A stretch of DNA of 64,000 bases from positions 4,518,001 through 4,582,000 of the forward strand of contig NZ_CP041614.1 of the NCBI RefSeq assembly GCF_007197555.1. The letters are read 5' to 3'. Shown here in pieces: positions 20,911-23,054 of the stretch (position 1 is its first letter; each line of letters begins with the position of its first letter). This DNA is from Shewanella psychropiezotolerans (GTDB lineage: Bacteria; Pseudomonadota; Gammaproteobacteria; Enterobacterales; Shewanellaceae). A program made the position numbers and the translations under genes. The notes beneath the pieces were generated by a model, which saw only the letters and a list, made by a program, of their open reading frames with translations, ran no database searches and had not been told where the DNA came from.

Positions 20911-20939
20911 AAAAAATACCGCTCATATGAGCGGTATTT
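20911..20939 (-). terminator. Terminator of the NhaC-family transporter gene
   Basis: A perfect palindrome (AAATACCGCTCATATGAGCGGTATTT, arms 20914-20939) follows the transporter stop by 46 bp and is followed on the minus strand by a seven-T run (A run 20910-20916). Confidence 0.9.
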
Positions 20940-20985
20940 CACTTGCTAGTCTTGCCTTAGGCTAGCAACAACATTGGTAGCATGG

Positions 20986-22554
20986 CTAGCTGGTAGACTG
21001 AGTAGATTTAACCTTCAAAACCAAGACGCTAATCACAAATAAGATGCTACAGGTAGCGAGTCCAGCCATCAGAGACTCGGTGAATCCCAGCACGATATAA
21101 CCGCCCAAGCTGATCCCCGCCACGATTAAGGCATAGGGCAGTTGAGTGACCACATGATCGATATGATGACAGTTAGCTCCCGTGGAGGAGAGGATCGTCG
21201 TATCTGAGATAGGTGAACAATGATCACCAAATACTGCACCAGCGAGCACTGCCGCAAGCATAGGTAACATCATATTGGTATGAGTACCCATCGCCATGTC
21301 CGCGGCAATAGGTAGCATGATACCAAACGTCCCCCAGCTGGTGCCGGTAGAGAACGCCGTCAGTCCTGCAAGCACGAATAAGACGGCGGGTAACAACGCA
21401 AACGGAATATTACCCGATGCCAGACTCGCCATGTACTTACCTGTCTCTAATTGACCAATCACGCCGGCAATCGTCCAGGCAAATAGCAAGATATAGATGG
21501 CTGGCAGCATAGAGCGAGCACCAGCAACCAGACCTTTAGTTAGGTATGACTTATCCAATCCTTGTATCAAGACTAAGGCCAGAGTCGCAATAAAACCGAC
21601 CAAGGCACCGAAGAACAAAGACGAAGCTACATCGGTATTTTCAAATGCACCAAGAATACTGAAAGGTTTTCCGTCTGCTGCTAAGACGTCTCCGCCGCTG
21701 CTCACCATGAAATAGAAGGTCGCAAGAACCAGTACGATAATGGGCAGAAATAATCCCAGAATCTTACCGTTATCGGCCTCAGGCAGATCTGAATTAGCTC
21801 CGGGGGGTAAGCCTTTAGCCTCATCATATAAGTTACCCTTCTGCGCATTGAGCTCATGCTGACGCATGGGGCCGACATTGAGATCCATGAAGGCGACACA
21901 AAACAAAAGTAGCAGTGCAAATATGGCATAGAAGTTCATCGGGATCATCTGGATAAAGATGCTCAGATGTCCTGAATCTGTGAAACCATGGGCGGTGAGA
22001 ATACCGCCGATCAAGGCGATGATATAAGCCCCCCAACTCGACACGGGAGAGATCACGCAGATTGGTGCAGCTGTCGAATCCAAAATATAGGCGAGCTTGC
22101 TGCGAGAGATATAATATCTGTCGGTCAGAGGTCTGGCGACACTGCCGACGACTAAGCTGTTGAAGTAATCGTCGATAAAGATCACGCAGCCTAAGAACAT
22201 GGTCATCAACTTGGCATCACGTTTACACTTTATGTGACCCCTTGCCCAATCGGCAAAAGCGTTAGCCGCACCGCTCACCGTAATAAGCGCGGTGATCATC
22301 CCCAATAGTACCAGGAAGCCTAGCAGATACATGTTCCAGGCATTGAGAGCACCATCATCCCAGAATAGGCCAGCAACTTGCTCGCCTAAGTATTGCCCAG
22401 ATGCTATGACAGAGAAATCGTTTATCAAAATAGCGCCGAGTAATATTCCCAGCCCTAAAGAGAGCAATACACGACGTGTAACAATCGCCATCAGAATCGC
22501 AACCACAGGTGGCAGCAATGAGAGCGCCGAATCGGCGTAACTTAAAGTTGTCAT
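20986..22554 (-). CDS. NhaC-family transporter, probable lysine transporter (LysW type)
   Basis: A multi-pass inner-membrane protein of 522 aa with ~11-13 hydrophobic segments. The FIDDYFNSLVVGSVARPLTDRY stretch and FGDHCSPISDTTILSSTGA are typical of the NhaC Na+/H+ antiporter superfamily. The gene alone would be called a sodium/proton antiporter. Its 5' leader, however, carries a lysine riboswitch (22699-22847). Riboswitch-linked NhaC-like genes have been proposed as lysine transporters (LysW) in gammaproteobacteria, so I infer lysine uptake coupled to Na+ or H+. No good ribosome-binding site is visible at ATG 22554. The transporter family is sure; the substrate rests on the riboswitch. Confidence 0.88.
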   Translation of the reverse strand: MTTLSYADSALSLLPPVVAILMAIVTRRVLLSLGLGILLGAILINDFSVIASGQYLGEQVAGLFWDDGALNAWNMYLLGFLVLLGMITALITVSGAANAFADWARGHIKCKRDAKLMTMFLGCVIFIDDYFNSLVVGSVARPLTDRYYISRSKLAYILDSTAAPICVISPVSSWGAYIIALIGGILTAHGFTDSGHLSIFIQMIPMNFYAIFALLLLFCVAFMDLNVGPMRQHELNAQKGNLYDEAKGLPPGANSDLPEADNGKILGLFLPIIVLVLATFYFMVSSGGDVLAADGKPFSILGAFENTDVASSLFFGALVGFIATLALVLIQGLDKSYLTKGLVAGARSMLPAIYILLFAWTIAGVIGQLETGKYMASLASGNIPFALLPAVLFVLAGLTAFSTGTSWGTFGIMLPIAADMAMGTHTNMMLPMLAAVLAGAVFGDHCSPISDTTILSSTGANCHHIDHVVTQLPYALIVAGISLGGYIVLGFTESLMAGLATCSILFVISVLVLKVKSTQSTS

Positions 22555-22680
22555 TTAATTATAATCTTAGTTTTAAGTACGAATGGAGGCTGCTGAACTG
22601 GTGGGATATTAAAGATATCTGAAAACACCTGTCCTATCAGTAGCGCTCCATAGTAATACCGTTAGTTAAAAGGTATAAAT

Positions 22681-22703
22681 TTTCTTATCATCCAGATAAG
22701 AAA
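22681..22703 (-). promoter_or_regulatory. Hairpin of the lysine riboswitch expression platform
   Basis: A perfect 9-bp hairpin (TTTCTTATC/GATAAGAAA, 5-base loop) starts inside the 3' strand of aptamer stem P1, so it and P1 cannot form together. The following bases are only moderately T-rich, so it may be an antiterminator-like switch element rather than the terminator itself. A further 8-base match (CCATAGTA with TACTATGG at about 22647-22654) offers another alternative pairing. Confidence 0.55.
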
Positions 22704-22847
22704 TACTATGGCAGTGCTGTACCTATTCGATACAGCCCCAGCAGTAAACCGTGATATGTATTACTACTTCGGCATCAAAGCCTTTCATGATAGATAAGCG
22801 GTATCACCCTGACTATCACTACTGATCTTTAATGCACCTCTACTTCT
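22699..22847 (-). ncRNA. Lysine riboswitch (L-box) aptamer
   Basis: On the minus strand the leader of the NhaC-family gene shows the L-box core elements in order: AGAGGTGC at 22841-22834, a middle part ending AGTCAGGGTGAT, GCCGAAG at 22773-22767, then GGGGCTG and the CTGTA/TACAG hairpin and ACTGC. Stem P1 pairs AGAAGTA (22847-22841) with TATTTCT (22705-22699). The order, spacing and total size (~150 nt) fit the family. In this class lysine binding turns the downstream gene off. The aptamer lies ~145 bp upstream of the transporter start codon. Confidence 0.87.
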
Positions 22848-22925
22848 CAGGACGTTTATCATGTGCCGAACTGATAGTACCAAACAGAGGTACTAAACTC
22901 AGGAAAACATGAAAACGTGAAGTTA

Positions 22926-22968
22926 ATAAAAACACAAGCGGCTTTGAGGATTCTACCCCAAAGCCGCT
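22926..22968 (-). terminator. Terminator of the etfBA operon
   Basis: A 10-bp stem (AGCGGCTTTG/CAAAGCCGCT) with two further G-C pairs inside the loop is followed on the minus strand by TGTGTTTTTATT. It lies ~87 bp after the etfA stop and just before the riboswitch-controlled leader. Confidence 0.85.
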
Positions 22969-23054
22969 CACTGTGACTAAGATCACGCTTATTTAGTGTA
23001 AATCAAAAGGGATTTCACCTAAAACTTACATTTACACAGCATATAATCGATAAG

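Follow-up and report, generated by a model that had tools for sequence, protein, structure and literature searches.

A lysine riboswitch with a putative anti-P1 switch helix upstream of the Shewanella transporter gene lysW, and the likely relation of LysW to Tet(35)

Introduction

The prediction that lysW encodes a lysine transporter reportedly originates in a 2003 paper on the L-box, and resistance from the cloned gene is said to have been reported for Tet(35) in 2002. In the excerpts of PMC5584792 drawn on here, lysW (COG1757, NhaC superfamily) is listed under lysine riboswitches and is placed, within the Gammaproteobacteria, in the Alteromonadales (Shewanella), Aeromonadales, Vibrionales and Pasteurellales. 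The pairing of this riboswitch with a PF03553 transporter is already in print there under the name lysW, and the same excerpts repeat a suggestion that lysW riboswitches serve cellular pH.

The literature on tet35, again as excerpted, runs separately. According to PMC11921324, the gene was present in all Vibrio species examined and in every isolate of the species that the paper tabulates, and the 62 southern sea otter isolates tested were tetracycline susceptible; the authors' explanation is instead weak efflux or poorly working variants. It was likewise present in all V. alginolyticus sequences examined in PMC7520990, where 116 of 116 Vibrio isolates were tetracycline susceptible, and V. harveyi strains with tet(35) show wide oxytetracycline zones (PMC9068760). 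Elsewhere tet35 is counted as a resistance gene of a V. parahaemolyticus strain (PMC7232470). PMC5584792 makes no mention of tet35 or tetracycline, nor PMC11921324 of lysine or a riboswitch. Among the titles and abstract openings of the literature searched, no link between tet35 and lysine or a riboswitch was found; the bracketed spelling of the gene name is unsearchable, so we claim no novelty for such a link.

The DNA analysed here is a 64,000-nucleotide stretch of Shewanella psychropiezotolerans contig NZ_CP041614.1 (the window), for which an original prediction, made by reading the sequence, had placed a lysine riboswitch upstream of an NhaC-type transporter gene.

Results

The Rfam covariance model of the lysine riboswitch (RF00168; gathering score 30 bits) matched positions 22850-22633 of the minus strand over its whole length (model positions 1-182) with 119.9 bits and an E-value of 1.8e-31. 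It was the only element in the 64-kb window above its gathering score in the Rfam scan. The lysine riboswitch of the original prediction was thereby confirmed with the very model proposed for checking it, and motif search recovered all four of its L-box motifs in the order claimed. The core motifs and the P1-P5 fold of RF00168 are present as judged by motif search and model alignment only; P1 pairs AAGTAG (5' strand, 22840..22845, minus) with CTACTG (3' strand, 22638..22643, minus) in that alignment. The segment 22530-22870 also folded better than every one of 100 dinucleotide shuffles (z -4.16). The element is a genuine lysine (L-box) riboswitch, the gene it precedes is of a known type, and the window copy is predicted to bind lysine. 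Its anatomy needed correction: the aptamer had been ended at 22681 but extends to 22633 (22633..22850, minus), because 42 nt are inserted in P5 compared with the Rfam model, forming two hairpins.

The gene downstream, lysW (20986..22554, minus), encodes a 522-aa PF03553 transporter, predicted to carry lysine. It shares its superfamily with the Na+/H+ antiporter NhaC, but scores 36.9 bits with the equivalog model TIGR00931 against a cut-off of 370. The best NCBIfam match of the protein is Tet(35) (NF000013), at 412.8 bits against a cut-off of 750, and no solved structure was matched by sequence up to E 1. Compared with LysW (COG1757) as excerpted from PMC5584792, the superfamily, the riboswitch and the genus are the same and no separating difference was found; the earlier reading of the NhaC-superfamily gene as a lysine transporter agrees with that published prediction. 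The combination of PF03553 with an upstream lysine riboswitch recurs across families, with the riboswitch absent at seven of eight loci of one family (see below). LysW is most likely a lysine transporter as predicted, and would most likely import it.

The protein had a match at E <= 0.001 in all 129 genomes of the genus that were searched, although only a weak one in a genome that is 52% complete. Leaders were collected from 138 loci, 125 of lysW1 (including the window, three copies that are split and one interrupted by an inner stop) and 13 of a paralogue, lysW2. The aptamer core pattern was present in 131 of the 138, that is, in 118 of 125 lysW1 and 13 of 13 lysW2 leaders; three further lysW1 leaders (genomes G025, G136 and G127) were matched by Rfam, giving an aptamer in 121 of 125. 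Outside the genus, RF00168 lay just upstream in eight of the nine NF000013-matching genomes searched with Rfam, G045 being the exception. The window genome has two lysine riboswitches, the second of which precedes pieces of a lysine-sensitive aspartokinase, present in this assembly as two overlapping ORFs (L169:2505-3880, minus). The genomes with a split lysW1 (three) or an inner stop (a fourth) are G001:C72, G106:C1, G120:C15 and G093:C1; G001 and G106 retain lysW2 with its own riboswitch.

The enlarged P5 (22648..22711, minus) is supported by covariation and has an outer helix (22711-22704 with 22655-22648) around two hairpins in a three-way junction. Folding and covariation place inner hairpin a at 22682..22702 and inner hairpin b at 22656..22677 (both minus). 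In 52 aligned sequences, this two-hairpin form was paired in 96.4% of cells and showed 77 double changes; shuffles averaged 22 and reached at most 42. Hairpin a is the hairpin (22681-22703) that had been thought to overlap the 3' strand of P1. It is the first of the two within P5, and therefore has no bases in common with that strand (22643-22638); its location within the covarying P5 rules it out as a competitor of P1. Among 89 unique P5 segments from lysW1 leaders, 53 have two inner hairpins and 36 have one, the latter measuring 46-51 nt (31 segments), 42 nt (four) or 28 nt (one, from G001, a genome with a broken lysW copy). In 31 one-hairpin sequences, in which the hairpin is poorly aligned, 80.2% of cells were paired; clear covariation was not found, the 16 double changes equalling the shuffled maximum and two slid versions scoring higher.

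The competitor of P1 is a different helix, anti-P1, between 22651-22626 and 22603-22583. Folding and comparative alignment define its 5' strand as ATGGAGCGCTACTGATAGGACAGGTG (22626..22651, minus), which includes the CTACTG strand common to P1 and anti-P1, and its 3' strand as CACCAGTTCAGCAGCCTCCAT (22583..22603, minus). In an alignment of the platform from 103 unique lysW1 leaders (three from split copies), 90.9% of the cells of the 19-pair helix were paired, compared with 29-44% when the strands were slid, and 50 cells carried a double change compared with 10.8 in shuffles, although these shuffle counts, like the p-values, overstate independence because the sequences are related. Two of five measures were unexceptional (pairs with a double change, 7 versus 5.7; further pair types, 23 versus 21.6), and the 13 compensated cells at columns 24 and 25 may represent one event because all are confined to one group of look-alike leaders. 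Unprompted, RNAalifold chose seven anti-P1 pairs in a weak consensus (-0.11 kcal/mol). In the window, no more than about 2 kcal/mol separates the P1 state from the anti-P1 state. On this comparative basis, an expression platform that excludes P1 is present, and the putative anti-P1 switch helix is well supported. In G136, the anti-P1 3' strand and the start codon are separated by an insertion, so that 379 nt lie between the riboswitch and the ORF.

Four genomes (G017, G142, G143 and G146) gave no RF00168 match in their lysW leaders up to E 1; each retains RF00168 elsewhere. Three of the four form one clade (100/100 in a tree without G143). Three stretches are each about 98% identical among the four, namely the sequence ahead of the aptamer, that from the 3' strand up to the start codon, and the beginning of the coding region, whereas the former aptamer region is 63.5% identical; identity at lysW fourfold sites is 0.41-0.72. 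In six intact sister genomes, fourfold-site identity is 0.34-0.58 and aptamer identity 0.875-0.985, compared with which 63.5% indicates that the aptamer is relaxed in the four. We prefer aptamer decay as the explanation. As a new structured RNA the four leaders were rejected, since, folded singly, they do no better than shuffles (z 1.76, -0.42, 0.42 and 0.22). Apparent pairing of P1 and P5 remnants was noticed in them by eye. Because the four keep the 3' strand without an aptamer, that strand has a function besides the switch, and these genomes offer a natural test of the platform alone.

A consensus scan found three terminator-like sites (1.9 expected in shuffles) and none between the end of the aptamer at 22633 and the ORF at 22554. 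The terminator hairpin that follows the aptamer of an intrinsic-terminator L-box is absent, and an intrinsic terminator readout is ruled out. Terminator-like hairpins lie after the upstream etf genes, before the lysW leader (22934..22971, minus), and after lysW (20913..20940, minus). The original prediction that the switch is not of the plain P1-then-terminator kind was right, albeit by a wrong argument: it holds because there is no terminator-like site and P1 competes with the downstream anti-P1 strand.

Next to anti-P1 lies a start-site hairpin (22567..22583, minus; from the alignment), TTCGT...ACGAA in most relatives. It is 92.8% paired, and in the window one pair is lost to a C.T mismatch; convincing covariation was looked for across the aligned leaders and not found. 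We compared the openness of the start site with P1 or anti-P1 forced in 109 unique leaders (L166 and L168 left out). Mean openness was 0.544 with P1 and 0.623 with anti-P1, the latter being more open in 92 of 109 leaders, and lysW2 leaders behaved similarly (0.349 versus 0.408; 9 of 13). However, openness was equal in the window (0.690 with P1, 0.683 with anti-P1) and did not differ in the Vibrionales (0.429 versus 0.432; 43 of 78), so the effect of the switch on translation is not settled. Plain sequestration of the start site finds weak support over the leaders and none in the window, and involves a hairpin with little covariation. Reading the lysW2 and Vibrio sequences, the strand that pairs with the 3' half of the aptamer can alternatively pair next to the start codon, which would be the usual OFF design.

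At E <= 1e-80, NF000013 matched 144 of 295 genomes of the order, only three of them over the cut-off. Among the 30 best loci, RF00168 was present at 22 of 22 in one family (Vibrionales, including the three over the cut-off) and at one of eight in a second. At the other seven loci of the second family a close relative of LysW/Tet(35) is present, but no lysine riboswitch exceeds the gathering score. In a named Vibrionales set (the best 80 of 266 relatives; titles Vibrio, Aliivibrio and, once, Vibrionales bacterium), a riboswitch was found at 80 of 80 loci: 59 of 59 by Rfam and 21 by the core pattern alone, since Rfam was run on 59 of the 80. The core pattern was present at 79 of 80, the sole miss, V. 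mytili, being an Rfam match.

The Tet(35) model match began at residue 165 in 10 of 10 Vibrionales proteins scanned, of which five passed the cut-off (V. harveyi NBRC 15634 with 836.8 bits). In V. harveyi the 369-position model, whose length we take to be the published length of Tet(35), starts at an internal Met165 and covers residues 165-533 of a 533-aa ORF. The window protein is 56% identical over its full length to this V. harveyi protein, and a lysine riboswitch lies upstream of both genes; they differ in that the window protein falls short of the NF000013 cut-off (412.8 versus 750 bits), and NF000013 itself spans only residues 165-533 of the V. harveyi ORF. The NCBI name Tet(35) is carried by 533-aa V. 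parahaemolyticus and V. vulnificus proteins, whilst most of the other Vibrio proteins listed are named NhaC family; among the 90 relatives listed, which are Shewanella wherever a source names the organism, a few are called tetracycline efflux or resistance pumps by JGI and UniRef. Plasmid copies of Tet(35) were sought and rejected: 68 matching records were all below 60% identity, and the best, at 54.2%, was on a chromosome-sized record.

Discussion

We think it highly probable that lysW, encoding an NhaC-superfamily lysine transporter and likely importer, is the one gene under the L-box, which would act at the level of translation and turn the gene off at high lysine. With lysine bound, P1 would form and the downstream strand 22603-22583 would stay unpaired; without lysine, this strand would capture the 3' halves of P5 and P1 in the anti-P1 helix. 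Translation start is the most likely point of readout, perhaps with Rho, and high lysine most likely turns lysW off. Of the inverted or translational logic proposed originally, the translational part stands as the most likely readout, whilst the inverted part gives way to OFF control, which we consider likely and favour.

An involvement of Rho overlaps with this explanation and is possible, though we think it less likely than not. The C-rich 3' strand, once freed, would be a Rho loading site: the 111 nt of the window that start at CCCACC and reach into the coding region hold 30 C versus 19 G, and there is no terminator-like site between aptamer and ORF. Against this, the 3' strand is conserved even where no aptamer controls it. 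We regard as unlikely an inverted logic in which lysine turns lysW on, LysW is an exporter, and anti-P1 stacks on the start-site hairpin to keep the gene shut without lysine. The two helices do abut and are nearly compatible, the four aptamer-less genomes with a free 3' strand still keep the 522-aa ORF, and the closest catalogue name is that of an efflux protein. However, anti-P1 leaves the start site a little more open across the 109 leaders, and pairing of the OFF type can be read in lysW2 and Vibrio, although the openness test shows no effect in Vibrio.

About equally improbable is a genuine riboswitch in front of a protein that transports Na+ and H+ for pH balance, as membership of the PF03553 superfamily and the suggestion reported for lysW in the excerpts of PMC5584792 would allow; the NhaC model score lies far below its cut-off, and a lysine sensor is retained upstream of the gene in several families. 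Chance resemblance, or a dead aptamer, has its bare possibility in its favour and is to our minds next to impossible; in that form it is already refuted by the E-value of the RF00168 match, by compensatory changes across the genus in anti-P1 and P5, and by the six intact sister aptamers, which are far more alike than the fourfold sites of the same genomes.

The window element is one more lysW riboswitch, in which P5 is enlarged and the switch helix is backed by covariation. The likely equivalence of Tet(35) and LysW and the aptamer loss in four genomes matter more, and the equivalence is the result most worth following up. Tet(35) is probably a housekeeping lysine transporter, LysW, governed by lysine through the riboswitch, with the resistance model describing the C-terminal 369 of 533 aa; this would explain the susceptible carriers. 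None of this evidence excludes weak efflux. If true, a gene of the resistance catalogues looks like a lysine-regulated nutrient transporter, and calling resistance from tet35 would therefore mislead.

Two features of the Vibrionales loci may be added. In V. mytili (L210:1042-1199) some 300 nt separate the riboswitch from the ORF, more than at the other loci, and at many loci a histidine operon leader (RF00514) is found just 3' of the Tet(35)/lysW gene.
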